A stretch of DNA of 64,000 nt from Paracoccus tegillarcae (GTDB lineage Bacteria; Pseudomonadota; Alphaproteobacteria; Rhodobacterales; Rhodobacteraceae). The stretch spans positions 2,873,001-2,937,000 of the forward strand of contig NZ_CP025408.1 in NCBI RefSeq assembly GCF_002847305.1. The letters are read 5' to 3'. Below, one piece after another: positions 4,245 to 28,845 of the stretch. Within the stretch, counting starts at the first letter, position 1; each line of letters opens with the position of its first letter. Position numbers and translations under genes: made by a program. The notes beneath the pieces are model-generated. The model was not told where the DNA came from, did not search any database, and saw only the letters and a program-made list of their open reading frames with translations.

Positions 4245-4260
4245 TTGGAAAGACTGAACA

Positions 4261-7245: not shown

Positions 7246-7288
7246 TCCGTACCGACCCCCCGTACCGGCACCAGAACGGAGCTGCAAA

Positions 7289-9558: not shown

Positions 9559-9562
9559 GGAT

Positions 9563-10480
9563 ATGGTAGACGTCTCAAACTTACCCGGACCATTCCCCGA
9601 AAGCGACCGCAGGCCGCCGACGGCAATGGAACGCAAGCTCAAGCGTCAGGAACGGCGCAGTGCAATCATCCGCTATGCCGTCCTGACGGTAGTGGGCCTG
9701 ATCATGCTGTATCCGCTGTTCTGGATGATCGGCGCATCGTTCAAGACCAATAGCGAGATCTTTTCCAGCCCCTGGTTCTGGCCGCAAGAGCCGACCGTTC
9801 AGGGCTATATCGATGGCTGGAGAACATCGACGCCCTACACCTTTGGGCATTTCTTTCTGAACTCGCTTTATATCGTGATCCCCAAGATGGTGGGCGTGGC
9901 GATCTCGTCCGTGGTGGTCGCCTACGGCTTTGCCCGGTTCGAGTTTCCGGGCAAGAAGATCCTGTTCGGCATCCTGATCGCGACGCTGCTCTTGCCCGAT
10001 GTGGTCACCCGCATCCCGCAATACCTGCTGTTTCGTGAACTGGGCTGGCTGGATACCTATCTGCCGCTCTTTGTGCCGCAATGGTTCGCGATGGAGGCCT
10101 TTTTCGTCTTCATGCTGATCCAGTTCATGCGCTCGGTTCCGCGCGACATGGAAGAGGCGGCGCGGGTCGATGGGGCCAACACATTACAGGTTTTGTGGTA
10201 TGTGGTGGTGCCGATGATGCGGCCGGCGATCATCTCTGTCTGTCTGTTCGTGTTCATGTGGACGATGAACGACTTCCTTGGCCCGCTGATCTATATCTCG
10301 TCGGTCGAGAACTATCCCATCAGCCTTGCGCTGAAACTGTCCATCGACGCGACCGAGGCATTCGCCTGGAATCAGATCCTGGCAATGACAGTGCTTGCAC
10401 TGACACCGTCGCTGGTCGTGTTCTTCATCGCTCAGAAATACTTCATCGAAGGCATCTCTACTGGGGGGGTCAAAGGATAA
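9563..10480 (+). CDS. oligosaccharide ABC transporter permease (CUT1, TogN-like)
   Basis: A 305-residue permease of the MalG/UgpE class with a roughly 35-residue charged cytosolic N-terminus, six membrane helices and the EAA loop EEAARVDGANTLQVLWYVVVP. It starts four bases after the partner permease, with GAGG upstream, and its TAA overlaps the ATG of the ATPase gene. Together the two permeases form the heterodimeric pore of the importer. Confidence 0.94.
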   Translation: MVDVSNLPGPFPESDRRPPTAMERKLKRQERRSAIIRYAVLTVVGLIMLYPLFWMIGASFKTNSEIFSSPWFWPQEPTVQGYIDGWRTSTPYTFGHFFLNSLYIVIPKMVGVAISSVVVAYGFARFEFPGKKILFGILIATLLLPDVVTRIPQYLLFRELGWLDTYLPLFVPQWFAMEAFFVFMLIQFMRSVPRDMEEAARVDGANTLQVLWYVVVPMMRPAIISVCLFVFMWTMNDFLGPLIYISSVENYPISLALKLSIDATEAFAWNQILAMTVLALTPSLVVFFIAQKYFIEGISTGGVKG

Positions 10481-11613: not shown

Positions 11614-11626
11614 TAGGGAGGATATC

Positions 11627-12889: not shown

Positions 12890-12896
12890 GACGACA

Positions 12897-12923
12897 GGCG
12901 GCGCCGGGCAAACCGGCGCCGCC
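12897..12923 (+). terminator. GC-rich intercistronic hairpin after the binding-protein gene
   Basis: An 11-base perfect inverted repeat (GGCGGCGCCGG / CCGGCGCCGCC) around the loop GCAAA begins eight bases after the stop. No clear T-run follows, so it is more likely a partial terminator or 3'-end stabiliser that keeps binding-protein mRNA abundant relative to the downstream hydrolase genes. Confidence 0.7.
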
Positions 12924-12946
12924 CCCTGACCTGCAAGGAAAAACCG

Positions 12947-14458
12947 ATGCCCGAATTACGCGCCATCGCCGTGACCGCGCGGACTGCGGTTGTCATGGTC
13001 GATGCCGAAACCTGCCGCTATCACCTGCCCGCAGCTCTGGATTGGGTGCTGAATGACGGGGCGCAGCGCGGCCAGACCTTTGTCGTTCCACTGTTTCTGG
13101 AGGGGCTGGCACCCGATACCGAACACCGGCTGGATGTGGCGGGCGATCTGCTGACGTTTCGCACCGCGCCCTGTGCCGGGCTGGTCGATGCGGCGGATCA
13201 CGGGGTGTCGGTCGATGCTGACGACAATGCGCAAGCCTTTGCCGCAGCCATCGCGGCAGTGCCCAGGGGCGGCACGCTGAGCGTTGCGGCCGGGCTTTAC
13301 GTCAGCGGCCCGATCTTTCTGAAATCCGACATGACATTCTATCTGCCCGAAGGCGTCCAGATCGCCGCCCCGGGCTCGCGCGAGGGCTGGCCGATCTTGC
13401 CCGAGCGTGACGGTGAGGGCCGCGTCATCGGCACCTGGGAGGGGCTGCCGGCGGCGTGCTTTGCCGCGCCCGTCACCGCCATCGGTTGCGACCGCCTGAC
13501 CCTGACCGGGCGCGGGATCATCGACGGCGGCGGCGATCGCGGCGACTGGTGGGATTGGCCCAAGGAACGGCGGCAGGGGGCATATCGCCCGCGTACGCTG
13601 TTTATGGCCCATTGCCGGGATCTGGTGATGTCGGGTGTGACCGTCCGCAACTCGCCCTCATGGACGGTGCATCCTTTTCATTGCCATGGCCTGATGGCCG
13701 CAGCGTTACGGATCGAAAACCCTGCCGATAGCCCCAATACCGACGGCTTCGACCCCGAAAGCTGCACCGATCTGCAATTGCGAGGATTGTCGATCAGCGT
13801 GGGCGACGACTGCATCGCCGTCAAATCCGGCAAGCGCGGCACCGGCGCCGACCGCCGGGTCGATCACATCGCGCCGACCCGGCATATGACCATCGCCAAT
13901 TGCCTGATGCAGGACGGACATGGCGCGGTCGTCATGGGCTCTGAAATGAGCGGCGATATCACTGATGTCGACATTAACCGCTGCGAATTCAAAGGCACGG
14001 ACCGCGGTTTGCGCATCAAGACCCGCCGGGGCAGGGGCGGGCAGGTCGCCCGTATCACCATGCGCGATGTGACCATGCAGGGCGTGGGCACCGCCTTGGC
14101 GGCCAATGCCTTTTACTATTGCGATGCCGATGGCCGCTCGGACGCGGTGCAGTCGCGCGATCCGGCCCCGGTAGATGAGACCACGCCGCAGATCGCCGAT
14201 ATCACCATAGAGAACCTTACCCTCACAGACGTGCGTCATGCCGTCGCCGCCTTTCTGGGCCTGCCCGAGGCCCCGCTGACCGGGATCCGGCTGTCGGATA
14301 TCCGCGTCAGCTATGACGACGACGCCCAGGCAGGCGATACGCTGATGGCCAGCTATCTGCCGCGCGTCCGGCATGGCGGCATCCTGCATCGCTTTGCTGA
14401 GCTGGAGACCGACGCTGCACTGCGCCCGCTGCTGGAGGACCTGAACGATGCTGGCTGA
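12947..14458 (+). CDS. glycoside hydrolase family 28, probable exo-polygalacturonase, cytosolic
   Basis: A 503-residue GH28 beta-helix enzyme that hydrolyses alpha-1,4 galacturonosyl links. All four family signatures are present: NTDG at 264-267, GDDC at 286-289 (two catalytic aspartates plus the one in NTDG), GHG at 324-326, and RIK at 356-358. An N-terminal segment of about 80 residues precedes the helix. There is no signal peptide, so it probably works on imported oligogalacturonides. The ATG is preceded by AAGGA. Its end overlaps the GH105 gene by 11 bases. Exo versus endo action is inferred from its cytosolic position. Confidence 0.93.
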   Translation: MPELRAIAVTARTAVVMVDAETCRYHLPAALDWVLNDGAQRGQTFVVPLFLEGLAPDTEHRLDVAGDLLTFRTAPCAGLVDAADHGVSVDADDNAQAFAAAIAAVPRGGTLSVAAGLYVSGPIFLKSDMTFYLPEGVQIAAPGSREGWPILPERDGEGRVIGTWEGLPAACFAAPVTAIGCDRLTLTGRGIIDGGGDRGDWWDWPKERRQGAYRPRTLFMAHCRDLVMSGVTVRNSPSWTVHPFHCHGLMAAALRIENPADSPNTDGFDPESCTDLQLRGLSISVGDDCIAVKSGKRGTGADRRVDHIAPTRHMTIANCLMQDGHGAVVMGSEMSGDITDVDINRCEFKGTDRGLRIKTRRGRGGQVARITMRDVTMQGVGTALAANAFYYCDADGRSDAVQSRDPAPVDETTPQIADITIENLTLTDVRHAVAAFLGLPEAPLTGIRLSDIRVSYDDDAQAGDTLMASYLPRVRHGGILHRFAELETDAALRPLLEDLNDAG

Positions 14459-15503
14459 TTATATTGATGACTACGTGACGCGCTATCAGCCCTACAAGGG
14501 CGGCAACTGGTGCTATGAGGATGGCTGCATCTATCGCGGCCTTGAATTGCTGCATATCGAAACCGGCGATCCGCGCTGGCTGGATCACCTGCACCGTCTG
14601 GCCGATGCGCAGATCGGCGACGATGGCAGTTTGGCTGGCTATAACCTCAGCGATTACAACATCGACAATGTGCTGCCGGGGCGCGCGCTGCTGTATCTGC
14701 AGCAGCAGACAGGCGAGCCGCGCTACATGACAGCCGCCGATCTGTTGGCCCGCCAGTTGCAGACCCATCCGCGCACCCAGTCGGGCGTCTACTGGCACAA
14801 GTTGCGCTATCCGTGGCAGATCTGGCTGGACGGCATCTATATGGGCCAGCCCTTCCGCATTGCCCATGCCCAGGCAAAGGGTCAGCCCGAAGATGTGGCC
14901 GATTCACTGCGCCAGATCGACATCGCCTTGAAGGCTTTGTTGGATGCCGAGGCTGGTCTCTACCGGCATGCCTTTGACGAGGCGCGCGAACAGCCTTGGG
15001 CCGACAAGAAAACCGGCCAGTCGCCCGCCTTCTGGGCGCGCGCGATCGGTTGGCTGGCCATGGCGCTGGTCGATGTGGCGGATCTGGTCGGTGATGATTT
15101 CGCGCCCTTGAAGGGCCGGACCGTCGATCTGCTGAACCGCCTGCAGGCGCTGCGCCAGCCAGATGGGCTGTGGCTGCAGGTGATCGACAGGCCCGATCTG
15201 ACGGGCAACTATCAAGAGATGTCGACCTCGGCCATGTTCGCCTATGCACTGCTGCGCGGGGCGCGGCTGGGGCTGGTGGACCAGCCGTCGGGTCTGGCCG
15301 AAACCCTGTTCGCACAAGCCGTCAAACCGAAATCTGGCGGCGGGCACGAAATGGTCGAGATCTGCGAAGTCGCCGGGCTTGGCATGTTCGAAAACCGCTA
15401 TCGCGATGGCAGCGCCGAATACTACCTGACCGAACGCCGCGTCGCCGACGATGCCAAGGGCGTCGGCCCGCTGATGATGGCGGCGGCGCTGGCGGGGGTC
15501 TGA
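14448..15503 (+). CDS. glycoside hydrolase family 105, unsaturated galacturonyl/rhamnogalacturonyl hydrolase
   Basis: A 351-residue alpha/alpha-barrel hydrolase that removes the unsaturated uronic acid left by lyases at the non-reducing end. Family landmarks are YLQQQTGEPRY, the catalytic aspartate D128 in WLDGIYMGQPF (equivalent to the known Asp of YteR), and WARAIGWLAMAL. No export signal is seen, consistent with action on imported oligomers. The start lies inside the GH28 gene and the stop overlaps the CE8 start (TGATG). Its product is the substrate of the KdgF-KduI-KduD route upstream. Confidence 0.94.
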   Translation: MLADYIDDYVTRYQPYKGGNWCYEDGCIYRGLELLHIETGDPRWLDHLHRLADAQIGDDGSLAGYNLSDYNIDNVLPGRALLYLQQQTGEPRYMTAADLLARQLQTHPRTQSGVYWHKLRYPWQIWLDGIYMGQPFRIAHAQAKGQPEDVADSLRQIDIALKALLDAEAGLYRHAFDEAREQPWADKKTGQSPAFWARAIGWLAMALVDVADLVGDDFAPLKGRTVDLLNRLQALRQPDGLWLQVIDRPDLTGNYQEMSTSAMFAYALLRGARLGLVDQPSGLAETLFAQAVKPKSGGGHEMVEICEVAGLGMFENRYRDGSAEYYLTERRVADDAKGVGPLMMAAALAGV

Positions 15504-16810
15504 TGCGGCCCCAGCTTACCGAGGAACAGGCCGCGCGCTACAGCCGCGATGAGGTGCTGCGCTACACCGGCGCCGCCGGGAATGATGTGACCGACCCGTG
15601 GTTGCCCGCGCCGCTGGTCGCGACCGCGATCCTGCTGGATTTCACCGTCGGGCAGGGCGGCAGCCATGCCACGGTTCAGCAGGCGGTGAATGCGGCGCTG
15701 GTTCAGGGCCGGGGCGGTCGCGTGGCAATCGGGATCATGCCGGGTGTGCATGAGGGGCTGGTTTACGTGCCGCCCGCGCCCTTCGCGCTGACCCTGATCG
15801 GGTTGGGGCGGCGTGCCGATGATGTGATGTTACTGAGCAATATAGACGCCGAGATGCCGGGCCCCGAATACAGGCGACGATTCCAGGCACAGTTTGCGGA
15901 TGCACCGGCGCAGGTTGCCAGCATCTTTCGCCGCATCGCCGCGACGGACAGGATCACGACGGCCAACGCCTCGGTGGTCCGCGTCGAGAATAACGACTTT
16001 CAACTGCTCAACCTCACCATTCGCAACAGCTACGGCGCAGATCGGGTGCAGCCGGACTCGACCGAAACGAATGCAGCAGGCCAGTTTCGCAAGGGGCAGC
16101 ATCAGGCCGTGGCACTGCTGATCGCCGGGGCGGACCGTGTGCAGGTGCAGGACGTCGCGCTGCGCAGTTTTCAGGACACGCTTTACCTGCAATCGCCCGC
16201 CAGGGGCCGGACGGTGCGGACCTGCCTGACCGGCTGCGATATCGAGGGCGATGTCGATTTCATCTTTGGCCAATCAACCGCCTGGTTCGAGCGCTGCCAG
16301 ATCCGATCTCTGGGGACGCGTGCACCGCAGGCATGGGCCACTGCACCCAGCACCGATATTTGCACGCGCCATGGTTTTGTTTTCAACGATTGCGACTTTA
16401 CGCATGACGGATCGCCTGCGGCACTGGCAGGCAGGTTCAGCCTTGGCCGGCAATGGTTCGAAGGCGTGCGCGCCACGCCTTACGGGCAGCCAACCGTGCC
16501 CGGCTATCGCTGCGATCTTGGGGCGGTGTCTGGCTATGATCCGCCCTCGGGCACGATCAGCCGCGCCACGCTGCAATCGGTGGGCAAATGCGTGATCCTG
16601 CGGTCACGGATCGGTGCGCATATCAACCGCGCGGCACCTTGGGACGATTGGAACGGGAACAGCTGGAACCCGCGCTATCGCCCTGCGCAATACCGCGCGT
16701 CGGACATGCTGGATGCCTTGTCAGGCTGGCTGCGGGGGCAGGATATCACCTTTGAGGACGTCGATCCGGCGATGGTCTTTCTGGGCGAATATGACAATCA
16801 GAACAGCTAG
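15503..16810 (+). CDS. pectin methylesterase, carbohydrate esterase family 8
   Basis: A 435-residue beta-helix esterase that removes methyl groups from galacturonate residues. Visible CE8 motifs are the GVHEGLVYV strand, SFQDTLYLQ with D225, the GDVDFIFGQ block with D252, and LGRQWF with the conserved arginine. An approximately 50-residue N-terminal extension precedes the helix. No signal peptide is found, which is unusual because many described bacterial pectinesterases are exported or lipoproteins. The ATG overlaps the GH105 stop; the longer frame from 15170 lies inside GH105. It is the last gene of the pectin cluster, 18 bases before the convergent lacI end. Confidence 0.92.
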   Translation: MRPQLTEEQAARYSRDEVLRYTGAAGNDVTDPWLPAPLVATAILLDFTVGQGGSHATVQQAVNAALVQGRGGRVAIGIMPGVHEGLVYVPPAPFALTLIGLGRRADDVMLLSNIDAEMPGPEYRRRFQAQFADAPAQVASIFRRIAATDRITTANASVVRVENNDFQLLNLTIRNSYGADRVQPDSTETNAAGQFRKGQHQAVALLIAGADRVQVQDVALRSFQDTLYLQSPARGRTVRTCLTGCDIEGDVDFIFGQSTAWFERCQIRSLGTRAPQAWATAPSTDICTRHGFVFNDCDFTHDGSPAALAGRFSLGRQWFEGVRATPYGQPTVPGYRCDLGAVSGYDPPSGTISRATLQSVGKCVILRSRIGAHINRAAPWDDWNGNSWNPRYRPAQYRASDMLDALSGWLRGQDITFEDVDPAMVFLGEYDNQNS

Positions 16811-17904: not shown

Positions 17905-17905
17905 T

Positions 17906-17923
17906 TGCTAAATCGATTGAGCA
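17906..17923. promoter_or_regulatory. probable LacI-family operator
   Basis: TGCTAAATCGATTGAGCA is an 18-bp palindrome around a central CG, with a single mismatched pair. Central CG and this length are typical of LacI-family operators. It lies 52 bases before lacI and 88 bases before the binding-protein gene, next to the putative -10, where bound repressor would block transcription. Confidence 0.75.
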
Positions 17924-18010
17924 ATCTTTTCAAGCTCGGCGATTCTGGCCCCGATCAACGCGGGGTCGCGGACATGGCGGCGTGGAGGCGCCGTGCTAGG
18001 GAGGAGAAGA

Positions 18011-18994
18011 ATGAAAAAATTTCTGAACGCGACCGCAATGGTCGCCCTGCTGACCGGCGCCAGTGCTGCCGGCGCGGAAACCACCATGGGCGTGGTCGTC
18101 AAGATCGGCGGCATCCCGTGGTTCAACGCAATGGAAGAGGGCATCAGCCAGCGCGCCGAAGAACTGGGTGTCACCGCCGAGATGATCGGCCCGACCTCTG
18201 CCGATCCGGCGCTGCAGGTGCGCGCCATCGAGGATCTGATCGCAAAGGGTGTCGACGTCATCGGCGTGGTTCCCAACGATGAGGCCGCGCTGGAGCCAGT
18301 GCTGAAAAAGGCCATGGATGCCGGGATCAAGGTCATCTCTCATGAGGGGCCGGGGCTTGAGAACGTCGACTGGAACTTTGAGCTGGCATCGGCCGAAGGA
18401 TTTGGCGAGGCGCATGCCAAGCTGCTGTGCGAGATGACGACAGAGCCGGGAACATATGCGGTCTTTGTCGGATCCCTGACGGTGCCGCTGCACAATGCCT
18501 GGGCGGATGCCGGGATTGCCTGGATCGAAGAAAACTGCGCTGAAAAACTGCAGCCGGTCGGTGACCGCTACGGTGTGGCGGAAAACGTCGATGACAGCCG
18601 CTCGACCGCGCTGGATCTGTTGGCGGCCAATGACGATCTGCGCGGCTTTCTGGCATTCGGCAGTCAAGGTCCGATCGGCGCCGGTCGCGCCGTCGAGGAA
18701 CGCCGGCTGGGTGGCCAGGTCCATGTGATGGGTCCGTTTTCGCCCGGACAGGGGCAAAAGCTGCTGGAAAGCGACGTGATCTCGGGTGGCTTCATGTGGA
18801 ACCCGGCCGAGGCAGGGCGCGTCTTTGTGACCTTGGGCGATATGCTGGCCAAGGGCGAAGAGATCGCCGATGGGGCCGAGATCGAAGGTCTGGGTGTGGT
18901 TCATCCCGATGTCGAGTCGCACAACATCATCACCGACAATCTGCTTGAGATCAACAAGGAGACGGTGGGCGAGTTGGCAGCAAAGGGGCTTTGA
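18011..18994 (+). CDS. sugar ABC transporter substrate-binding protein (ribose/rhamnose/AI-2 class)
   Basis: A 327-residue periplasmic binding protein family 4 member. Residues 1-22 are a signal peptide (ending AGA), followed by TTMGVVVKIGGIPWFNAMEEG, the usual first strand and sugar-binding helix. It resembles RhaS and LsrB in layout. The ATG follows GGGAGGAG. It is first in a nine-gene operon ordered binding protein, ATPase, permease, permease, as in rhizobial rhaSTPQ. AI-2 uptake is unlikely because no lsrK, lsrF or lsrG neighbours exist. The ligand is probably a pentose or deoxyhexose. Confidence 0.9.
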   Translation: MKKFLNATAMVALLTGASAAGAETTMGVVVKIGGIPWFNAMEEGISQRAEELGVTAEMIGPTSADPALQVRAIEDLIAKGVDVIGVVPNDEAALEPVLKKAMDAGIKVISHEGPGLENVDWNFELASAEGFGEAHAKLLCEMTTEPGTYAVFVGSLTVPLHNAWADAGIAWIEENCAEKLQPVGDRYGVAENVDDSRSTALDLLAANDDLRGFLAFGSQGPIGAGRAVEERRLGGQVHVMGPFSPGQGQKLLESDVISGGFMWNPAEAGRVFVTLGDMLAKGEEIADGAEIEGLGVVHPDVESHNIITDNLLEINKETVGELAAKGL

Positions 18995-19031
18995 GGCCCG
19001 GTGGCTGCCACCCGATAAACCGATAACCAGG

Positions 19032-19051
19032 GGTCCGCAGTTCTGCGGGCC
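19032..19051 (+). terminator. intercistronic hairpin between binding protein and ATPase genes
   Basis: GGTCCGCAG and CTGCGGGCC pair over nine positions (one G-T wobble) around TT, so two pairs may open to form a four-base loop. No T-run follows. Such hairpins behind binding-protein genes often raise the binding-protein share of the mRNA. Confidence 0.5.
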
Positions 19052-19074
19052 TCTGTCTGACAGGCAGAAAATTC

Positions 19075-20580
19075 ATGGCAAGTGATCCCGACAAAGCCCC
19101 GGCATTGCGGCTGCGCAACGTCTCCAAGACCTTTGGCGGCGTCAAGGCGCTGCAATCGGTCGATTTCGAGGTGCGCGCTGGCGAGGTTCATTGCCTGGCG
19201 GGTGAGAATGGCTGCGGCAAGTCGACTTTGATCAAGATCGTGACCGGCGTCTATACGCCCGATCCCGGGGCTGAGATCCAGCTTTTCGGTGAGGACGTCG
19301 CCCAGATCACCCCGACGCGGGCGCGGGCCATGGGCATCGCTGTCATCTGGCAGGATCTGGCGCTGTTTCCGCATATGACCGTGGCCGAGAACATTGCCTT
19401 TGACGAAATGGTTGGCACCATGCCGCGCCTGGCCTTTGGCGGTCGCTACAAGGGTCGTGTCCGTGCCGTGCTGGACCGGCTGAACGTGCCGCTGGATCTG
19501 GACGCGCGTTTGGGTGAACTGCCCATCGCACAGCGTCAGATAGTGGCCATCGCGCGGGCGCTGATGGGTGATGCGCGGCTGGTTTTCATGGATGAACCCA
19601 CGGCCTCGCTGACGCAAAGCGAAACCGACGCGCTGCTGGATGTCGTTCGCAATCTGTCGGCACAGGGGATTGCGGTCGTCTTTGTCAGTCACAGGCTGGC
19701 CGAGGTGCTGGACATCGCCGAGCGCGTGACCGTTGTGCGCGACGGCAAGCTGGTCGGCGTTTATCCGACCGAAGGCATGACCCAATACCGGCTGGGCGAA
19801 TTGATGACCGGCGCGCAGCTTGAATATACCGTCACCGCGCGGGATCGCTCGGATGCCGAGCCCGTGCTTGAGGTCGAGGGCCTGTCGCGCGGGGGAGAGT
19901 TTCACGACATCGACTTGACCATCCGGCGAGGCGAGGTGCTGGGACTGACCGGGCTGATCGGCGCAGGCCGGACCGAGTTGGCGCATGCGCTGATCGGCAT
20001 GACCGCAGCGGATGCCGGAAGCGTCCGGCTAGAGGGCAGGCTGGTCCGGTTCCACTCCATCCGCGAGGCCATCGCTCACGGCATCGCCTATGTGTCCGAG
20101 GACCGTTTGTCGCTGGGCCTGATCCAGCCGCAATCCATTTCGGACAACACCGTGATTTCGGTGCTGGGCCGCATTCTGAACCGGGCAGGCCTGATCTCGC
20201 CCGAGCGGCAGTCGGAACTGGTGCGCTATTGGATCAACGAACTGGCGATCAAGATCGGCTCGCCCGAAGATGCCGTCTCGACCCTGTCGGGCGGCAACCA
20301 GCAGCGTGTCGTGCTGGCGAAATGGCTGGCGACACAGCCCCGGCTGCTGATCCTCGACAGCCCGACGGTGGGCGTCGATGTGGGCGCCCGGGCGGGCATC
20401 TTTCGGATCGTGCGGCAATTGGCCGAAGAGGGGCTGTCGATCCTGCTGATCTCGGATGAGGTCAGCGAGGTGATGTTCAACGCCGACCGGGTCCTGCACA
20501 TGGCCGATGGCCGCATCGTTGGCGAATACGACCCGCGCCAGACCGATGTTCCCGAACTGGAGGCGCGGATCTATGCGTGA
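19075..20580 (+). CDS. sugar ABC transporter ATPase (CUT2, two nucleotide-binding domains)
   Basis: A 501-residue fused double ATPase of the RbsA/RhaT class. Domain 1 has a complete Walker A (GENGCGKST) and Walker B (LVFMDEPTASL) with a divergent signature (LPIAQRQIVAIARAL). Domain 2 has the usual degenerate Walker A (GLIGAGRTEL), an intact LSGGNQQRVVLAKWL signature, and a Walker B reading LLILDSPTVGVD, with serine where the catalytic glutamate normally sits. Its end overlaps the next permease by eight bases. It energises import with the two permeases. Confidence 0.94.
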   Translation: MASDPDKAPALRLRNVSKTFGGVKALQSVDFEVRAGEVHCLAGENGCGKSTLIKIVTGVYTPDPGAEIQLFGEDVAQITPTRARAMGIAVIWQDLALFPHMTVAENIAFDEMVGTMPRLAFGGRYKGRVRAVLDRLNVPLDLDARLGELPIAQRQIVAIARALMGDARLVFMDEPTASLTQSETDALLDVVRNLSAQGIAVVFVSHRLAEVLDIAERVTVVRDGKLVGVYPTEGMTQYRLGELMTGAQLEYTVTARDRSDAEPVLEVEGLSRGGEFHDIDLTIRRGEVLGLTGLIGAGRTELAHALIGMTAADAGSVRLEGRLVRFHSIREAIAHGIAYVSEDRLSLGLIQPQSISDNTVISVLGRILNRAGLISPERQSELVRYWINELAIKIGSPEDAVSTLSGGNQQRVVLAKWLATQPRLLILDSPTVGVDVGARAGIFRIVRQLAEEGLSILLISDEVSEVMFNADRVLHMADGRIVGEYDPRQTDVPELEARIYA

Positions 20581-21586
20581 TCTCTTTCACAACTATCCTG
20601 TCGAGGCCCGCATCTTTGTCGTGCTGCTGTTGATGATCATCGGTCTGTCACTGGTTACTGACAGCTTCATGACGCTGGGCAACATCACCTCGCTTTTCAA
20701 CAGCAATGCCGTGAACCTGATCTGGGCCATGGGCTTGCTGGTAGTGCTGATCGCGGGCGGCATCGACATCTCATTCGCGGTTGCGGCCTCGGTCGTGCAG
20801 TATGTCGCCGCGCAGATTTTCATCGGCATGGGCGGCGGCAACTGGGCCATCGGCTTTATCGTGGCCGGCACGCTTGGGATCGGGCTTGGCCTGATCAACG
20901 CGGCATTGATCCATGGTTTTCGGGTGATCTCTATCGTTATCACCATCGCCACCTTCAACGCCTTTTTCGGGCTGCTGATGTTCTTTACCAAGGGCCGCAA
21001 TATCTACAATCTGCCCGACTGGTGGACCGAACGGATCTATATCTTTGAACATCAGGCGGCCAATGACACCTGGTCGGAACTGAACCTCGCGGTCGCGGTC
21101 ATGCTGGGCTGCGTGCTGGCAACATGGGTGCTGATCCGGCTGACGACACTGGGCCGGCAGCTTTACGCCTTTGGCGACAATCCCGAGGGCGCGCGCCGTG
21201 CCGGCGTGAACATCTGGCAGATGCAGATGGTCGCCTTTGGCTGGTGCGGCATGATGGCCGGCATCGGCGGGCTGATGCAGGTGAATATCGCCCAGGAGGT
21301 CGTGCCCAATGCGCTATATGGTCGCGAACTCGAGGTTCTGGCAGCCGTTGTTCTGGGCGGTGCGCGACTGGGCGGCGGGCGCGGCACGGTGATCGGCTGC
21401 ATTCTGGGCGTCATGTTCGTGGCGATCACACAGAACGGGCTGAACCTGATGGGTGTTTCGCCCTTTGCCTTCCAGATGATCATCGGCGCGACCATCCTGA
21501 TCGCGATCTCGTCCTCCAACCTCAATCTGGGTTTGGGGCGTCGCAAGGGCGATGCCGAGGCGCGGCTGAAAGGGGGGACGGCATGA
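20573..21586 (+). CDS. sugar ABC transporter permease (CUT2, first)
   Basis: A 337-residue, highly hydrophobic permease of the RbsC/AraH class with 8-10 membrane helices. GGIDISFAVAASVVQY is the conserved CUT2 motif, and the C-terminal VLGGARLGGGRGTVIGC segment is also family-typical. The ATG at 20573 has GGAGG upstream inside the ATPase gene; the longer frame from 20507 is not needed. Its stop overlaps the next start by four bases (ATGA). Confidence 0.94.
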   Translation: MRDLFHNYPVEARIFVVLLLMIIGLSLVTDSFMTLGNITSLFNSNAVNLIWAMGLLVVLIAGGIDISFAVAASVVQYVAAQIFIGMGGGNWAIGFIVAGTLGIGLGLINAALIHGFRVISIVITIATFNAFFGLLMFFTKGRNIYNLPDWWTERIYIFEHQAANDTWSELNLAVAVMLGCVLATWVLIRLTTLGRQLYAFGDNPEGARRAGVNIWQMQMVAFGWCGMMAGIGGLMQVNIAQEVVPNALYGRELEVLAAVVLGGARLGGGRGTVIGCILGVMFVAITQNGLNLMGVSPFAFQMIIGATILIAISSSNLNLGLGRRKGDAEARLKGGTA

Positions 21587-22581
21587 CCAGCACCTTGCGC
21601 GAACGCATCACCGCCCGCCTTGGCCCCGAAACCCTGCCGCTGCTGGGATTCCTGCTGCTGGTCGTGGTCGCCTTCGCAGTGGCGACCCCGCTGTTTCTGA
21701 CCGGTGCAAACCTGCGGTCCATGGCCTTTCAGATGCCCGTTCTGGGGCTGCTCACACTGGCCATGCTGGTGCCGATCCTGTCGGGTGGGCTGAACCTGGC
21801 GATCATCTATCAGGCCAATATCTCGGGCCTGGCGCTGGCCTGGGTGCTGATCCAGTTCGGCGGGCCTGATGCCGGTATCGGTGCGTTCCTGCTGGGCTCG
21901 GCGCTGGCGATCATCGTCGGGGCCTTGTCAGGCGCGCTGATGGGCGCGGTGGTGGCCTATATCGGCGCGCATCCGATCCTTGTGTCGCTGGCGATGATGA
22001 TCTTTCTGCGCGGTCTGGGTGAATTCATGACCCGTGGCGGCGATATTTCCGGTTTTCCCAGCTATATGACCACCTTGGGCCATGGCAGCCTTGCGGGGAT
22101 CCCCGTGCCGTTGATCCTGTTTCTGGCCGCGGCAGCCCTGTGGCATCTGATGCTAAAGCGGACCCGGCACGGGTTTTCCGTCTATATGGTTGGCTCGAAC
22201 ATCCGCGCCACGGAATATTCGGGCCTGCCGACACGGCGGACCCTGACGCTGATCTACACGCTTTCGGGGGTGATCTGCGCTGTGGCGGGCATCCTGATGG
22301 CGGCGCGGTTCAATTCGGTCCGCGTGGGCCATGGCGAGGCGCTGCTGCTGGTCACGGTGCTTGCCTGTTTCCTGGGCGGGGTCGATCCGTTTGGCGGCTT
22401 TGGCCGGGTTTTGCCGGTGGTCATCGCACTGGTGATCCTGCAGGCGCTGTCCTCGGGGCTCAGCCTGATCGGCGCGAACCAACATCTCTCGACGGCCGTC
22501 TGGGGCCTGTTCCTGATCGGCGTCATGGCGCTGCGATGGGCCGGCGGCCGGTGGCGAAGCAGACAGCGAAAGGCAGGGTAG
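21583..22581 (+). CDS. sugar ABC transporter permease (CUT2, second)
   Basis: A 332-residue partner permease of the same class with GGLNLAIIYQANISGL at the place of the CUT2 motif and CFLGGVDPFGGFGR near the C-terminus. Having two different permeases, rather than one forming a homodimer, is typical of the rhamnose and AI-2 type systems. It ends two bases before the epimerase gene, so import and metabolism are one transcript. Confidence 0.94.
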   Translation: MTSTLRERITARLGPETLPLLGFLLLVVVAFAVATPLFLTGANLRSMAFQMPVLGLLTLAMLVPILSGGLNLAIIYQANISGLALAWVLIQFGGPDAGIGAFLLGSALAIIVGALSGALMGAVVAYIGAHPILVSLAMMIFLRGLGEFMTRGGDISGFPSYMTTLGHGSLAGIPVPLILFLAAAALWHLMLKRTRHGFSVYMVGSNIRATEYSGLPTRRTLTLIYTLSGVICAVAGILMAARFNSVRVGHGEALLLVTVLACFLGGVDPFGGFGRVLPVVIALVILQALSSGLSLIGANQHLSTAVWGLFLIGVMALRWAGGRWRSRQRKAG

Positions 22582-22583
22582 AA

Positions 22584-23432
22584 ATGGAAGGTTTCGGCGT
22601 ACACACAAGCATGTGGACCATGCATTGGGATCGGGCAGGCGCAGAGCGGACGATCCCCTCTGCGGCCGCCTACAAGATGGATTTTATCGAGATCGCGCTG
22701 CTGGACACGTCGATCGTTGATGCCGCCCATACCCGCGACCTGCTGGCCAAGCACGAGATGCGGGCGGTCTGTTCGTTGGGCCTGCCAGAGGAAAGCTGGG
22801 CCTCTGTCAATCCCGACGGTGCCATCGCCCATCTGACCGATGCCATGGACATGGCCAAGGAAATGGGCGCCGAGGCGCTGTCAGGCGTCACCTATGGCGG
22901 CATCGGCCAGCGCACCGGCCTGCCGCCGACCGAGGCGGAATACGACAATATCGCGCGCGCATTGGCGGCGGCGGCGAAACATGCCAAGGGTCTGGGCATC
23001 GCCTTCGGGATCGAGCCGGTCAATCGCTATGAAAACCACCTGATCAACACGGGCTGGCAGGCCCGGCAGATGATCGAAAAGGTGGGCGCGGACAACATCT
23101 TCATCCATCTCGACACCTATCACATGAACATCGAGGAAAAGGGCGCTGGCAACGGCATACTCGATGCGCGCGAGCATCTGCGCTATATCCACCTGTCCGA
23201 AAGCGATCGCGGCACGCCGGGCGAGGGAACCTGTGACTGGGACGAGGTTTATGCCACGCTGGCCGCAATCGGTTATAAGGGCGGGCTTGCGATGGAAAGC
23301 TTTATAAATATGCCGCCTCAGGTCGGCTATGGGCTGGCGGTCTGGCGTCCGGTTGCCGAATCCTTCGAAGAGGTGATGGACAAGGGCCTGCCGTTCCTTC
23401 GCAACAAGGCCGCACAATATCGCCTGATATGA
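22584..23432 (+). CDS. sugar isomerase/epimerase, ketose 3-epimerase-like TIM barrel
   Basis: A 282-residue xylose-isomerase-like TIM barrel. Four metal ligands are visible: E144 (in GIEPVNRYE), D177 (in HLDTYHMN), H203 (in YIHLSE) and E238 (in AMESF). Their spacing (33, 26, 35) is identical to Glu152, Asp185, His211 and Glu246 of D-tagatose 3-epimerase, whose two glutamates are also catalytic. Epimerisation of a free ketose at C3 is therefore the best prediction, but related TIM-barrel isomerases use the same ligands. The start is the ATG two bases after the permease stop. Confidence 0.88.
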   Translation: MEGFGVHTSMWTMHWDRAGAERTIPSAAAYKMDFIEIALLDTSIVDAAHTRDLLAKHEMRAVCSLGLPEESWASVNPDGAIAHLTDAMDMAKEMGAEALSGVTYGGIGQRTGLPPTEAEYDNIARALAAAAKHAKGLGIAFGIEPVNRYENHLINTGWQARQMIEKVGADNIFIHLDTYHMNIEEKGAGNGILDAREHLRYIHLSESDRGTPGEGTCDWDEVYATLAAIGYKGGLAMESFINMPPQVGYGLAVWRPVAESFEEVMDKGLPFLRNKAAQYRLI

Positions 23433-24067
23433 GCCGCCAGATCACCCTCGCTGCGCTGGCCCGGCACCTGTCAGATCTGGATCACGGTGATCGGGTGATC
23501 TGTGCGGTCGCCGGTGCGCCGGGTTCGGGCAAATCGACACTGGCCGAGGCGCTGGCTGCGCAGTTGAACAAGGGTCAGCCGGGGACAGCCGAGGTCGTTC
23601 CGATGGACGGGTTCCATTACGACGATCTCTATCTGGTCCCCGCAGGCCTGCGCCCCCGCAAGGGCGCGCCCCATACCTTTGACGTGGGCGGTTTGCGTAA
23701 TGTGCTGGCAAGGCTGCGCACCCGTGACGAGGATGCTGTCGCGGTGCCGGTCTTTGACCGCGACATGGAAATCGCCCGTGCCGGTGCGCGGCTGATCGAC
23801 CGATCGGTCCGGATCATTCTGGCCGAGGGGAACTATCTGCTGCTGGACAGCCCGCCCTGGCGCGACCTGAGCCCGCTTTTCGATGTGACGGTGATGATCG
23901 ACGTGGACGAGCAGGTGCTACGCGCCCGCCTGACCCGGCGCTGGACCCGCTATGGCCTGACCGATGAACAGATAGAGGAAAAGCTGGAGGGCAACGACCT
24001 GCCCAATGGCCGGGTCGTCCGTGAAACCAGCGCACCCGCCGATTTCGTGATCCGGCAGAACCGATGA
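23429..24067 (+). CDS. P-loop nucleoside/sugar kinase-like protein (FrcK/uridine-kinase family)
   Basis: A 212-residue cytosolic P-loop NTPase. Walker A is GAPGSGKST (29-37), the MDGFHYDD segment is the substrate-binding motif of uridine/pantothenate-kinase-like enzymes, and LIDRSVRIILAEGNYLLL is the following strand. The closest named relatives that I recall are FrcK-type proteins of the rhizobial fructose operon, whose true substrate is not well settled. Start and stop overlap neighbours by four bases each. It is one of three kinases in this operon. Confidence 0.85.
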   Translation: MSRQITLAALARHLSDLDHGDRVICAVAGAPGSGKSTLAEALAAQLNKGQPGTAEVVPMDGFHYDDLYLVPAGLRPRKGAPHTFDVGGLRNVLARLRTRDEDAVAVPVFDRDMEIARAGARLIDRSVRIILAEGNYLLLDSPPWRDLSPLFDVTVMIDVDEQVLRARLTRRWTRYGLTDEQIEEKLEGNDLPNGRVVRETSAPADFVIRQNR

Positions 24068-25476
24068 GCGACCGCGCGACCATCGCTGTGCTCGATGTGG
24101 GCAAGACCAATGTCAAGCTTTGGGCTGCCAGTGCGGACGGTGCTTTGCTGGAACAGGCAGAGACCCGGAACACGGTGCTGCCCGGCCCGCCCTGGCAGCA
24201 TCACGATCTGCAGGGGTTGGGCGATTGGGTGGGCGAAACGCTGGCCGGCTTTTGCCGCCGCCATCCGATAGAGGTGATCGTGCCGGTCGGACATGGCTCT
24301 GGCGGGGTGTTGGTGGGGGCCGATCCAGATGCCAGGGGTGGTGGCGCAGCACTGCCGATGATCGACTATGAGGATGGATGCCCGCCGGAACTGGATGCGG
24401 ACTATGCCGCGCTTGCAGGGTCGTTCGAGGATCGCGGAAGCCGCGTGATGATGGCGATGACCCACGCCGCGCGCCAGTTGCTGCGGATACAGCGGGCCGA
24501 TGCCGATGCCTTCGCGGATGCGCAGCACTATCTGAATGTCGCGCAGTATTGGGGTTGGTGGTTCAGCGGGGTTGCGGCATCCGAGTTCTCGGCAATGGGC
24601 GCGCAAACGCATCTGTGGAACGTCCCCCGCCGCCGTTGGACACCCATCGTCGAGGCGCAAGGCTGGGGCCGCCTGCTGCCCGATTTTCGCCCGGCATGGG
24701 CGCCGCTTGGCCCGTTGCGCGACAGTCTGGCACAGCGGTTCGGATTGCCTCGGGGGCTGACCATACTGACGGGCGCGCATGATTCCAGCATCAATTTCCA
24801 TCGCTACCGCGCCGCCGGGCTGACCGATTTCACGCTGGTCTCGACCGGCACCTGGATCGTCGCGATGTCACGCGAGGCCGATACCGCCGCATCCGATCAA
24901 AGCCGCAGCGCCACGATCAATGCCGATCTGACCGGCGAACCTGTCGGCGGCGCGCTGGCGATGGGCGGGCGTGAATTTTCCATGATCGCCGGCAAGGATT
25001 GGCAGGGCGAACACGTCGATCCCGCCGCGTTGGCCCGGATCGTGCAGCAGGGCACCATGGCGCTGCCCAGCTTTAGCAACAACGAGGGTCAGTTCCCGGG
25101 CAGCGCCGGGCGCGGTCGCATCATCGGCCCGCCGCCCGCAAACCCATCCGAACGCGCTGCGCTGGCGTTGATGCAATCGGCGCTGTTGACGGTGACCTGT
25201 GCCGATGTGCTGGCGGGCGGAGAGCGGCTGATCCTGGACGGCACCTTCCTGCGCGAGCCGCTTTATGCCCCCCTGGTCGCGGCGCTGCGGCCGGGCAGGC
25301 CGACCGCCTTTTCGGATGAGCCGCAGGGCGTGGTGATGGGGGCGCTGCAATTGGCAGGTCACGACGCGCCGTCCCGGCCTGCACTTACGCTAGATCCCGT
25401 GACCCCCATCCAGATCCCCGGCCTTGCCCAATACGGCAGACGCTGGCGCATAAATGCAGAAGAACAAGGAGCCTGA
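24064..25476 (+). CDS. FGGY-family carbohydrate kinase (fuculokinase/rhamnulokinase-like)
   Basis: A 470-residue sugar kinase of the ASKHA fold. The N-terminal phosphate loop is VLDVGKTNVKLW and the likely catalytic base is D240 in GAHDSS. The VSTGTWIVAMSR segment resembles rhamnulokinase and fuculokinase relatives. It directly precedes a class II aldolase gene, so phosphorylation at C1 of a ketose is the likely reaction. The exact sugar cannot be read from the sequence. Start overlaps the previous gene (ATGA). Confidence 0.88.
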   Translation: MSDRATIAVLDVGKTNVKLWAASADGALLEQAETRNTVLPGPPWQHHDLQGLGDWVGETLAGFCRRHPIEVIVPVGHGSGGVLVGADPDARGGGAALPMIDYEDGCPPELDADYAALAGSFEDRGSRVMMAMTHAARQLLRIQRADADAFADAQHYLNVAQYWGWWFSGVAASEFSAMGAQTHLWNVPRRRWTPIVEAQGWGRLLPDFRPAWAPLGPLRDSLAQRFGLPRGLTILTGAHDSSINFHRYRAAGLTDFTLVSTGTWIVAMSREADTAASDQSRSATINADLTGEPVGGALAMGGREFSMIAGKDWQGEHVDPAALARIVQQGTMALPSFSNNEGQFPGSAGRGRIIGPPPANPSERAALALMQSALLTVTCADVLAGGERLILDGTFLREPLYAPLVAALRPGRPTAFSDEPQGVVMGALQLAGHDAPSRPALTLDPVTPIQIPGLAQYGRRWRINAEEQGA

Positions 25477-25481
25477 TCCAG

Positions 25482-26162
25482 ATGACCCAAGCCGAGCTTA
25501 GACAGGCCATGGTCGAGACCTGTCGCCAGATGAATTCGACCGGCATCAATCAGGGCACGGCAGGCAACCTGTCTGTCCGTTCAGGCGACGGCTTCCTGAT
25601 CACGCCCTCGTCGCTGCCCTATGATCAGATGGGACCGGACGATCTGGTCGAGATGGATTTCGACGGCAGCTACGGCGGGCGCAGGCCCTCGTCCGAATGG
25701 CGCTTTCACCGCGATATCCTGAAGAACCGCACCGATATCGACGTGGTGCTGCACTGCCATTCGGTCTACGCCACCACGCTTGCCTGCCATCACCGCGAGA
25801 TACCGGCCTTTCATTATATGGTCGGCGTTGCCGGCGGCACCACGATCCGCTGCGCCGATTACGCGACCTTTGGCACGCAGGCCCTGTCCGATGCCGCGCT
25901 GAAGGCGCTAAAGGGGCGGCTGGCCTGCCTGCTGGGGCAGCATGGCCAGATCTCGCTCGGGCGCACGCTGGATCAGGCATTATGGCTGGCGATCGAGGTC
26001 GAGACGCTGTCGCGGCTTTATGTGCAGGCCCTGCCTCTGGGCGACCCGCCGGTTCTGCCGGATGAGGAAATGGCGCGGGTGATCGAACAGATGAAGCGGA
26101 TGAGCTACGGTCAGGGGCCAGAGCCCGAGGGCAGCAACGACATCGCCCGCCCGCGCGGCTGA
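25482..26162 (+). CDS. class II aldolase, L-fuculose-1-phosphate aldolase-like
   Basis: A 226-residue zinc aldolase/AraD-family protein. The ligands and base fall at E72 (SSEWRFH), H91 and H93 (LHCHS) and H154 (QHG), exactly one residue before the known FucA set E73, H92, H94 and H155. The GxNQGTAGNLSVR and ITPSS motifs bind the phosphate. The expected reaction splits a ketose 1-phosphate into dihydroxyacetone phosphate and an aldehyde. AAGGAG precedes the ATG. Together with the upstream kinase and epimerase it forms a plausible pathway for one imported sugar. Confidence 0.91.
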   Translation: MTQAELRQAMVETCRQMNSTGINQGTAGNLSVRSGDGFLITPSSLPYDQMGPDDLVEMDFDGSYGGRRPSSEWRFHRDILKNRTDIDVVLHCHSVYATTLACHHREIPAFHYMVGVAGGTTIRCADYATFGTQALSDAALKALKGRLACLLGQHGQISLGRTLDQALWLAIEVETLSRLYVQALPLGDPPVLPDEEMARVIEQMKRMSYGQGPEPEGSNDIARPRG

Positions 26163-26176
26163 TCAGGAGGCGCAAG

Positions 26177-27790
26177 ATGACCTGTTTCATGGGGATCGAT
26201 GTCGGCACCGGCAGCGCGCGCGCCGGGATTTTTGATGCCGTGGGCAGGTTGTTGGGCAAAGCTGCATCCGAGATCGAGACCTTTCGCGAGGGCGCCGATA
26301 TCGTCGAACAGTCATCGGCGCAGATCTGGTCGGCCGTCTGTGGTGCCTCGCGCGCAGCCATCGCGCAGGCAGGCGTCGATCCCTCGGATGTGGTTGGCCT
26401 GGGCTTTGATGCGACCTGCTCGCTGGTGGTGCTGGATGAGACGGGCAACGGGCTGCCGGTCGGTGCCAGTGAAGATCCGGCGCGCGATATCATCGTCTGG
26501 ATGGATCACCGCGCCACAGCCGAGGCCCGCGATATCAACGCCACCAAACATCCGGTGCTGGCCTATGTCGGCGGCGTCATCTCGCCCGAGATGCAGACGC
26601 CAAAGCTGCTTTGGCTGCGGCGGCACCGGCCTCAGATCTATGTCAATGCGGCGCATTTCTTTGACCTGACCGATTTCCTGACCTGGAAGGCCACGGGATC
26701 ACTGGCGCGTTCGGATTGCACGGTGACCTGCAAATGGACCTATGTCGCAGGCGAGGGCGGATGGAACGCGGACTATTTCGACCAGATCGGCCTTGAGGAT
26801 CTGGCCCGGGAAGGATTTCGCCGCATCGGCGCGCAGATCGTCCCGCCGGGCACACCGTTGGCGCAGGGGCTGACAGACGAAGCGGCGCGCGCGTTGGGTT
26901 TGGCGCGCGGGACCGCCGTTGCCGCGGGTCTGATCGACGCTCATGCCGGGGGCTTGGGCACAGTGGGCGCCAGCGGGCTTGGGCCGGCGACGCAGAACAT
27001 GGGATATGTGTTCGGCACATCGTCCTGCACCATGACGACCACCACCGATCCGGTCTTTGTGCCGGGTGTCTGGGGTCCCTATTTCTCGGCCATGCTGCCG
27101 GGCATGTGGCTGAATGAGGGCGGGCAATCCGCCGCCGGTGCCGCGATCGACCGGCTGATCCGGCTGCATCCGGCCTTTGATCAGGTCTCAGCGCTGGCCG
27201 GGCGAACGGGTCAGTCCACCCCCGACTGGCTGATGCAAACCGCATTGGCTGGCGCCGGATCGGCCAGCGATGCCGCTAGGCTGGCCGACGGGCTGATCGT
27301 GGTGCCGGAATTTCTGGGAAATCGCGCGCCCCATGCCGATCCAGATACCCGCGCGGTGATCGCGGGGTTGGGGATGGGTGATACGCCAGACAGCCTCGTC
27401 GCGCTGTATATCGCCGGAATCTGTGGTCTGGGCTATGGCCTGCGCCAGATCCTGCACGCACAGGCTGCACGTGGTGCGGCGGTCGAGCGGATCGTGATTT
27501 CAGGCGGGGCGGGGCGAAACCCGGCGCTGCGTCAGCTGCTGGCAGATGCGACAGGCACGCCGGTGGTCGCCCCCGAAAGCGATGAGCCGGTCTTGCTGGG
27601 CGCCGCCATGTTGGGGGCCTGTGCCTCGGACAGCTATGACAGTCTGGCGAAATGCATGCCGGCCATGTCGCGCGTGTCCCAGACCCATGAACCGGCCCAG
27701 GGCGAGACCGCGCGGCTGCATGCCCGGCGCTTTGATCTTTACGAGCGTCTGCACGACGTCGCGCGCCAGGTGGCGGTTCAGGCGCGCTAG
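26177..27790 (+). CDS. FGGY-family pentulose kinase (ribulokinase-like)
   Basis: A 537-residue FGGY kinase, different from the 470-residue one upstream. Features are GIDVGTGSARAGIFD at the N-terminus, DIIVWMDHRA, the catalytic D254 in GLIDAHAGGLG, and FGTSSCTM. It belongs to the pentulose kinase branch (D-ribulokinase, ribitol-kinase-like). It has its own AGGAGG site 14 bases after the aldolase stop and is the last gene of the operon. Two FGGY kinases suggest either two substrates or two products of one sugar. Confidence 0.88.
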   Translation: MTCFMGIDVGTGSARAGIFDAVGRLLGKAASEIETFREGADIVEQSSAQIWSAVCGASRAAIAQAGVDPSDVVGLGFDATCSLVVLDETGNGLPVGASEDPARDIIVWMDHRATAEARDINATKHPVLAYVGGVISPEMQTPKLLWLRRHRPQIYVNAAHFFDLTDFLTWKATGSLARSDCTVTCKWTYVAGEGGWNADYFDQIGLEDLAREGFRRIGAQIVPPGTPLAQGLTDEAARALGLARGTAVAAGLIDAHAGGLGTVGASGLGPATQNMGYVFGTSSCTMTTTTDPVFVPGVWGPYFSAMLPGMWLNEGGQSAAGAAIDRLIRLHPAFDQVSALAGRTGQSTPDWLMQTALAGAGSASDAARLADGLIVVPEFLGNRAPHADPDTRAVIAGLGMGDTPDSLVALYIAGICGLGYGLRQILHAQAARGAAVERIVISGGAGRNPALRQLLADATGTPVVAPESDEPVLLGAAMLGACASDSYDSLAKCMPAMSRVSQTHEPAQGETARLHARRFDLYERLHDVARQVAVQAR

Positions 27791-27879: not shown

Positions 27880-28845
27880 TCAGCGAATGGGGTTGCGGTA
27901 AACCATGCGACGGACAGAGCCGGTCTTGGATCGCATCAGGATCGTTTCGGTGGTCAGATAGCCCGGTTCGCGCTTGATCCCGGCCACGACCGACCCATCG
28001 GTCACGCCAGTGGCGGCGAAGATCACATCCGCGGTCACCAGATCGTCCTTGGAATAAATGCGGTTCAGATCGGTGATACCCGCCTTGGCCGCGCGGCCGC
28101 GTTCGTCGTCATTGCGAAACAGCAGCCGGCCCCACATCTGACCGCCCATGCATTTCAACGCCGATGCGGCAAGCACGCCTTCGGGTGCACCGCCCGAGCC
28201 CATATACATGTCGATGCCGGTCAGTTCAGCCTCGGCGGTGTGGATGACGCCGGCCACATCGCCATCGGTGATCAGACGGATCGCGGCGCCGGTCTGGCGA
28301 ACCTCGGCGATCATGTCCTCGTGCCGGGGGCGCTCCAGGATACAGACGGTGATGTCGCTGTCCTTGACGCCACGGGCCGTTGCCAGTGCGCGCACACGCT
28401 CGGCCGGCGACATGTCCAGATTGACCACATCCTTGTCATAGCCCGGCCCGATGGCCAGCTTGTCCATGTAAACGTCAGGCGCGTGCAGCAGCGTGCCGCG
28501 CGGCGCCATGGCGATCACGGTCAAGGCGTTGGGCATATCCTTGGCGGTCAGCGTGGTGCCTTCCAGCGGGTCCAGCGCGATATCGACCTCGGGGCCGTTT
28601 CCAGTGCCGACCTCTTCGCCGATATACAGCATCGGGGCTTCGTCACGCTCGCCCTCACCGATGACGACGACACCCTTGATGTCCAGCATGTTCAACTGAT
28701 CGCGCATGGCATTCACGGCGGCCTGATCGGCGGCCTTTTCATCGCCGCGTCCGATCAGCAGGGCCGAGGCATGTGCCGCCGCCTCTGACACGCGGGCCAG
28801 GCCCAGGGACAGCATGCGATCGTTGAAATCCTTCTGGGTGCTCAT
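27880..28845 (-). CDS. glpX: class II fructose-1,6-bisphosphatase
   Basis: A 321-residue GlpX phosphatase of gluconeogenesis and the Calvin-type sugar-phosphate pathways. The lithium-sensitive phosphatase motifs VVIGEGERDEAPML and DPLEGTTL hold the metal ligands, and GSGGAPEGVLAAS is the substrate loop. The ATG at 28845 follows AGAGGAAAG. It converges with the sugar operon. Growth on pectin-derived triose phosphates and pyruvate would need this step, but that link is only functional inference. Confidence 0.95.
   Translation of the reverse strand: MSTQKDFNDRMLSLGLARVSEAAAHASALLIGRGDEKAADQAAVNAMRDQLNMLDIKGVVVIGEGERDEAPMLYIGEEVGTGNGPEVDIALDPLEGTTLTAKDMPNALTVIAMAPRGTLLHAPDVYMDKLAIGPGYDKDVVNLDMSPAERVRALATARGVKDSDITVCILERPRHEDMIAEVRQTGAAIRLITDGDVAGVIHTAEAELTGIDMYMGSGGAPEGVLAASALKCMGGQMWGRLLFRNDDERGRAAKAGITDLNRIYSKDDLVTADVIFAATGVTDGSVVAGIKREPGYLTTETILMRSKTGSVRRMVYRNPIR

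Follow-up and report, generated by a model that had tools for sequence, protein, structure and literature searches.

The closest described system to the locus studied here is supABCD-smb20488 of Sinorhizobium meliloti, in which SupABCD is predicted to import psicose and Smb20488 to make fructose from it (diCenzo et al. 2016, PMC4961836). The passage that makes this prediction treats import and epimerisation only, D-psicose is listed for the S. meliloti deletion deltaB163 (PMC4961836), the species is tabled with growth on D-psicose and beta-D-allose (PMC4207669), and a psicose locus of another kind is described for Klebsiella pneumoniae (PMC6020474). Here we analyse a 64,000-nucleotide stretch of Paracoccus tegillarcae (NZ_CP025408.1, positions 2,873,001 to 2,937,000; "the window", in whose own positions all coordinates are given), which carries a nine-gene sugar transport and kinase locus at 18011-27790. 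In our reading LacI would control an operon that serves the use of a rare ketohexose, D-psicose (D-allulose) being the likeliest, with both an epimerase-fructokinase and a kinase-aldolase branch, and we put the probability of this at roughly 0.55.

The initial annotation had described nine genes here, and all nine open reading frames were found at that place and strand (+). A SupA-like periplasmic sugar-binding protein (SBP; PF13407 Peripla_BP_4; 18011-18994) is followed by a sugar ABC transporter ATPase with two ABC_tran stretches (19075-20580), two BPD_transp_2 permeases (20573-21586, with the corrected start 20573, and 21583-22581) and a ketose 3-epimerase of the D-tagatose 3-epimerase (DTE) family (EPI; an AP_endonuc_2 TIM barrel; 22584-23432, corrected start 22584). 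Downstream of it lie a FrcK-like P-loop sugar kinase (FRK; 23429-24067; a weak PRK/AAA match in Pfam), an FGGY_C_2-type carbohydrate kinase (FG1; PF00370 FGGY_N and PF21546 FGGY_C_2; 24064-25476), a class II FucA-like aldolase (ALD; PF00596 Aldolase_II; 25482-26162) and an FGGY kinase of pentulose type (FG2; FGGY_N and FGGY_C; 26177-27790). From the ATPase to FG2 adjacent genes overlap or are at most 14 bases apart and the widest intergenic gap, from SBP to ATPase, is 80 bases; because the genes sit this close, they likely form one operon. A divergent LacI-family regulator gene (PF00356/PF13407; 16829-17854 (-), TTG start in the list of open reading frames) and a palindrome at 17905-17924, TTGCTAAATCGATTGAGCAA, palindromic at 18/20 positions and a probable LacI-type operator, are also parts of the locus.

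The S. meliloti 1021 locus in our collection (L073; related loci carry L numbers and genomes G numbers) shares with the window the order regulator, SBP, ATPase, permease, permease, EPI, FG1 and ALD, into which the window adds FRK, and the identities are 71% for SBP, 74% for EPI, 53% for FG1 and 81% for ALD. It also has the same operator core, and its gene order and position suggest that it is smb20484-90. The window thus has the make-up of a supABCD-type locus, with a divergent LacI gene, SBP, ATPase, two permeases and a DTE-family epimerase in the same order and orthologous, but unlike L073 it adds both the FrcK-like kinase and a second FGGY kinase. For the initial annotation this was a possible undescribed pathway: the exact gene set was indeed found in no described pathway, whereas the transporter and epimerase half is that of S. 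meliloti supABCD-smb20488, for which psicose has been predicted.

To see how widely this arrangement occurs, SBP was searched against 394 genomes of the family at E <= 1e-95. It matched in 16, and EPI lies behind the transporter in all 13 loci that are complete on one contig; the remaining three (G022, G068, G405) are broken by contig ends. EPI itself was found at E <= 1e-60 in 20/292 genomes of the order, and FG1 has a match in 37/100 family genomes, with at least 53% identity in 6 (its own included) and at most 37% in the others. The transporter-epimerase block recurs across Alphaproteobacteria, and named members on plasmid records come from S. meliloti, S. fredii NGR234, Ruegeria, Chelatococcus, Thalassospira, Skermanella, Microvirga, Agrobacterium larrymoorei and Rhizobium johnstonii.

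Behind this block the enzyme genes are exchanged. We compared 27 complete loci, counting the window, with an SBP identity of 64% or more and with gene content determined by tblastn; they were gathered via mixed anchors (EPI, FG1, SBP and hand-picked plasmid matches) and so do not form an unbiased sample. Left out were the truncated L029, L031, L094, L121 and L122, the distant L074, L075 and L076, L097, which is without this transporter, and L070, which is from the same species as L073. EPI is present in 27/27 loci. FG1 and ALD occur together in 13/27 and neither occurs alone, and FG1 adjoins ALD in each of the 13. FRK is found in 12/27, FG2 within the operon in 7/27 and adjoining it in 2 more (L051, L072), and 2/27 (L116, L071) are without FRK, FG1, ALD and FG2. 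The combination of FRK with FG1-ALD is limited to the window and L117, and only the window (1/27) has FRK, FG1, ALD and FG2 together. In regulator and epimerase the operon nearest to that of the window is L095 (regulator 77% identical and in the same divergent position, SBP 86%, EPI 93%, FRK 72%), which is without FG1 and ALD, and in L078 and L082 the FG1-ALD pair is a separate unit across the regulator. The Skermanella locus L078 (483-16159) has transporter and EPI on one side; opposite them are LacI, a xylulokinase, FG1, ALD and one more FG1-type kinase.

On a tree of SBP (a quick search with 26 labelled rows, 9/25 inner branches left open and L118 dropped out) the minimum numbers of changes were 6 for FG1-ALD, 8 for FRK and 4 for FG2, and therefore these tails seem to have been gained and lost repeatedly. 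FRK and FG1-ALD exclude each other among the 27 loci with a Fisher p of 0.006, but on independent tree pairs this was not significant (median p 0.5), and we therefore regard the mutual exclusion as a tendency.

The operator recurs along with these variants. In the window TTGCTAAATCGATTGAGCAA has 1 match compared with 0.02 in shuffles, for a pattern derived from the site itself, and its own genome holds one exact copy and one other site at 3 mismatches. A wider regulon of the regulator was rejected, as the operator has a single exact genomic copy. A TTGCNNNATCGATTNNGCAA-like site with at most 2 mismatches was found in 24/33 related loci, scanned on one strand as fetched and with the location not confirmed for every site. 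These sites span variants with FRK, FG1-ALD or FG2 as well as L071, and are absent at this threshold from L068, L074, L075, L076, L078, L082, L115, L116 and L119 of the 33; L078 and L082 have the related site GCTAAATNGATTTAGC instead. The exact core pattern occurs in 8/295 family genomes (reversed control 0), and 7/8 of these sites fall at this operon. The eighth (G342, L097) has a LacI gene on one side and a different sugar transporter on the other; at L097 (8496-16830) the LacI gene and like operator stand ahead of an XylF-like transporter, which is accompanied by an FRK-like gene and a kinase resembling FG2 (59%). As the same operator type accompanies different tails, the recurrence suggests a single inducer shared by the variants.

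EPI is 75% identical (212/281) to the 'D-tagatose 3-epimerase' entry PDB 7dz5, which in turn shares 269/281 residues with the epimerase at the S. fredii NGR234 locus and 265/281 with that of S. meliloti 1021. The EPI residues E143, D176, H202 and E237 (numbered from 22587) are spaced like E150/D183/H209/E244, the metal ligands of the D-psicose 3-epimerase 2HK1 (PMC3869271). TIM barrel, Glu/Asp/His/Glu site and close deposited kin place EPI in the D-tagatose/D-psicose 3-epimerase family, and it scores 149.1 bits on the NCBIfam D-psicose 3-epimerase model NF051856, below its cut-off of 300. The R. sphaeroides DTE (PMC5679380) was set aside as a match, being a different enzyme of 295 residues.

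Among the five enzymes only FRK and FG2 pass a curated NCBIfam cut-off, whereas SBP, EPI, FG1 and ALD reach none among the families listed (for ALD, the best 25 of 28). FRK scores 268.6 on the subfamily model NF006746 (cut-off 250) and matches PDB 3c8u, deposited as 'Fructokinase', with E 1.2e-48; FG2 scores 663.4 bits on TIGR01315 (cut-off 408.7). A second locus of the same genome (L129:6688-10623, C1 about 1.167-1.171 Mb) encodes a distant FG2-like kinase together with an SDR, a fumarylacetoacetate hydrolase-family protein and a 2-oxo-tetronate isomerase-like protein. ALD is identical at 99/204 positions to the FucA of PDB 1dzx and keeps the residues aligned to E73, H92, H94, H155, Y113, F131 and Y209, which we take to be the catalytic residues of FucA, with F206 replaced by Met and T43-G44 by Ser-Ser. 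From these kept residues ALD is likely FucA-like in mechanism, and its scores stay below the cut-offs of both the FucA model TIGR01086 (209.9 bits, cut-off 400.25) and the ribulose-1-phosphate aldolase model (164.7 bits, cut-off 300).

Gene content, its conservation, the exchange of modules, the recurrence of the operator, family membership and the kept active-site residues are observations; which sugar is used, which carbon is phosphorylated, what is formed and how the genes are controlled we infer as follows. An inducer would release the regulator from the operator at 17905-17924, the ABC system would take up D-psicose and EPI would convert it to D-fructose, which FRK or a housekeeping fructokinase would phosphorylate into glycolysis. 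In parallel, FG1, presumably a ketose 1-kinase, would add a phosphate to C1 of the (3R,4R) ketose, and ALD would cleave the D-psicose-1-phosphate to dihydroxyacetone phosphate (DHAP) and D-glyceraldehyde. FG2 might be a third, interchangeable ketose kinase, its substrate assignment being uncertain, and the imported sugar would then probably have up to three alternative enzyme routes. More tentative than the choice of D-psicose is the specific proposal that FG1 is a D-psicose 1-kinase and ALD a D-psicose-1-phosphate aldolase, swappable with an epimerase-fructokinase cassette under one regulator type, of which the window would hold both and a third kinase; we hold it at somewhat less than even odds. 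The initial annotation had suggested that an imported ketose is epimerised at C3, phosphorylated at C1 and cleaved by the aldolase, which is still the best reading of the parts, with the other kinases handling a second product. The latter is not supported: action in series is not required, and among relatives one kinase tends to stand in for another as an alternative tail.

D-psicose made from DHAP and D-glyceraldehyde has the (3R,4R) geometry. Because a FucA aldolase makes D-psicose from these two compounds (PMC3869271), FG1-ALD is chemically sensible for D-psicose-1-phosphate. Our search of open-licence PMC papers, as far as their text was available, turned up no route of an FGGY kinase and a FucA-type aldolase for psicose, and psicose-1-phosphate or allulose 1-phosphate is named once each in PMC5434028, PMC9048046 and PMC7934257. 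The same sugar is indicated by an unrelated enzyme set in Pantoea (L075, SBP-ABC-alsE-alsK-rbsK), where transporter subunits 46-53% identical to those of the window (SBP 53%) accompany AlsE (376.5, cut-off 271), AlsK (353.1, cut-off 253) and RbsK (300.6, cut-off 299.65), thus psicose/allose chemistry by the named families. The Pantoea operon, which is without DTE, FGGY kinase and aldolase, would phosphorylate first and then epimerise the phosphate. Since L071 and L116 have EPI without FRK, FG1, ALD and FG2, the product of EPI should suit housekeeping enzymes, which fits fructose. In addition, five related operons (L053, L098, L118, L120, L122) carry between SBP and ATPase a gene for an HxlB-like SIS-domain protein of about 184 aa, pointing to hexulose phosphates.

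Several observations weigh against D-psicose. The closest solved binding proteins, PDB 3d02 and 9i1m ('AauA, a sugar-binding protein with its substrate'), are no nearer to SBP (AlphaFold model, mean pLDDT 87.9) than 41% identity each, and the ligand of AauA is presumably L-arabinose. A Klebsiella plasmid transporter (L074) with an SBP 50-55% identical adjoins L-ribulose-5-phosphate 3- and 4-epimerases of L-xylulose type, so the ligand can switch at this distance. An argument from the binding pocket was dropped: 60 positions in conserved blocks were chosen by eye, and as the Pantoea SBP (51/60) and the Klebsiella L-xylulose-type SBP (50/60) score alike, they were left unused. The DTE family is promiscuous, and a characterised Sinorhizobium DTEase, presumably the 7dz5 enzyme, is tabled as preferring D-tagatose (PMC7758420). 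The psicose phenotype belongs to deltaB163, a multi-gene pSymB deletion, rather than to these genes individually, and dulcitol and D-glucosamine are listed for this strain as well (PMC4961836). The SIS proteins of the five loci score 142.3-152.2, below the cut-off of 160 of the HxlB model TIGR03127, and L071 is not strictly bare, as a fructose-bisphosphate aldolase gene comes after its EPI. The FG1-ALD branch can do without EPI if psicose itself is the imported sugar, and in G068 the trio FRK-FG1-ALD stands on a 19-kb contig without an EPI match (L029). Finally, the family of FG2 is one of pentulose kinases.

This last point leads to a pentulose operon, in which D-ribulose (or D-xylulose) would be imported and interconverted by EPI, FG2 would form D-ribulose-5-phosphate, and FG1 and ALD would give DHAP and glycolaldehyde via D-ribulose-1-phosphate. 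FG2 is above the cut-off of TIGR01315, a family that includes D-ribulokinases, ALD has its 164.7 bits on the ribulose-1-phosphate aldolase model, D-ribulose is (3R,4R) too, and in Klebsiella L076 a TIGR01315 kinase comes straight after a related transporter (SBP 41%), with no EPI. Against this stand the HxlB-like genes of the sister operons, the psicose prediction for S. meliloti together with the AlsE/AlsK operon of Pantoea, and the EPI-only operons, which would need a xylulokinase: in G059 (97% complete) the best XylB scores 283.9 against a cut-off of 380.25, weak evidence as a real XylB may score lower. Among 13 genomes scanned XylB is above its cut-off in 11 and the ROK-fructokinase model NF007108 in 0, which is weak evidence as well. 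On balance we consider a pentulose unlikely, though still a serious rival. A little less likely again is another hexulose, such as D-tagatose, L-sorbose/L-tagatose or an alditol-derived 3-hexulose, with EPI and SIS-type isomerases feeding fructose-6-phosphate. D-tagatose/D-sorbose 1-phosphate is without the FucA stereochemistry and EPI would then yield no housekeeping sugar, and D-tagatose is listed for a separate deletion, deltaB181 (PMC4961836), yet D-tagatose is the best substrate tabled for a Sinorhizobium DTEase (PMC7758420), deltaB163 shows dulcitol too, and L065 has an EPI relative (71%) in an operon with HxlB-like and SDR genes.

A sugar from pectin, namely apiose, L-rhamnose, L-fucose or L-arabinose, appears improbable to us. 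Apiose catabolism also relies on an isomerase of TIM-barrel type together with an FGGY kinase and a class II aldolase, and the window does hold a pectin/uronate cluster upstream (2580-16810) with pectate lyase, KduI, a KduD-like SDR, a mannitol-dehydrogenase family protein, GH4, two ABC sugar permeases, GH28, GH88 and pectinesterase. Eight of its proteins were compared with 32 related loci (E <= 1e-10), in flanks that vary in length and are partly short: KduD-like SDRs matched in L051, L052, L070, L072, L073, L076, L077 and L117 and one UxuB-like gene in L052, whereas pectate lyase, KduI, GH4, GH28, GH88 and pectinesterase had zero matches in these fetched flanks. Because the pectin genes do not recur at the relatives, the link to pectin made in the initial annotation is unsupported and rhamnose, fucose, arabinose and apiose are not favoured; with six proteins unmatched, an RG-I/RG-II sugar was rejected as the leading reading, and the pectin neighbourhood looks incidental. 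EPI is moreover 75% identical to a deposited ketose 3-epimerase, and the scores are far under the cut-offs of the RhaS and FucA models.

On the other side, distant paralogs of FG1 and of the transporter do occur in rhamnose-type operons. Rhizobial L-rhamnose operons (rhaSTPQ-rhaK) share the transporter architecture and an FG1-type kinase; we call Mesorhizobium L003-L005 rhamnose-type by architecture, while Aminobacter L079 has annotated rhaI, rhaM and RhaD. Compared with these operons SBP is 27-32% identical and FG1 32%, the latter value also holding for the FG1 paralog within the annotated rhamnose gene group of L079, and four FG1 relatives at 31-32% (L003-L005, L027) belong to operons built like RhaSTPQ. 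In Aminobacter rhaI and rhaM are directly followed by an aldolase with 80% identity to ALD (L079:12001-12684), in a group that also carries RhaD and a second class II aldolase. A rhamnose operon was nevertheless rejected for the window, where the RhaS score is 108.9 against a cut-off of 342.25 and, unlike in the rhizobial operons, RhaI, mutarotase and RhaD are not among the nine genes. With the L-fucose pathway the locus shares an aldolase with 99/204 identities to FucA and kept catalytic residues, but FucI, FucK, FucO or an aldehyde dehydrogenase is not among the nine genes. This agrees with the initial annotation, which had seen no aldose isomerase, mutarotase or lactaldehyde dehydrogenase; Pfam and NCBIfam place none among the nine.

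Some neighbouring and related loci are worth recording. A glpX gene for a class II fructose-1,6-bisphosphatase (324.8, cut-off 259.3) lies at 27880-28845 (-), convergent with the end of the operon. In Ruegeria L072 (1-4202) the operon is adjoined by genes for an alcohol dehydrogenase, an HxlB-like SIS protein, two SDRs and an FG2-like kinase, and L051 has genes of similar size; a possible function of this set is an alditol-to-hexulose pathway. The related transporter of L074 lies beside an L-ribulose-5-phosphate 3-epimerase, an FGGY kinase and AraD, resembling plasmid-borne L-xylulose use, and Citrobacter plasmids show the same SBP match.

D-psicose is a sweetener that is produced industrially with DTE-family epimerases, and to our knowledge the natural role of many members of this family is unassigned. 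The locus suggests a candidate ketose-1-phosphate route of which we found no description in the accessible text of open-licence PMC papers, and a possible psicose 1-kinase and (3R,4R) aldolase would be useful for sensing or making rare sugars. Furthermore, a conserved operon with a shared transporter, a recurring operator and swappable tails offers a direct handle on the physiological role of DTE-family epimerases.

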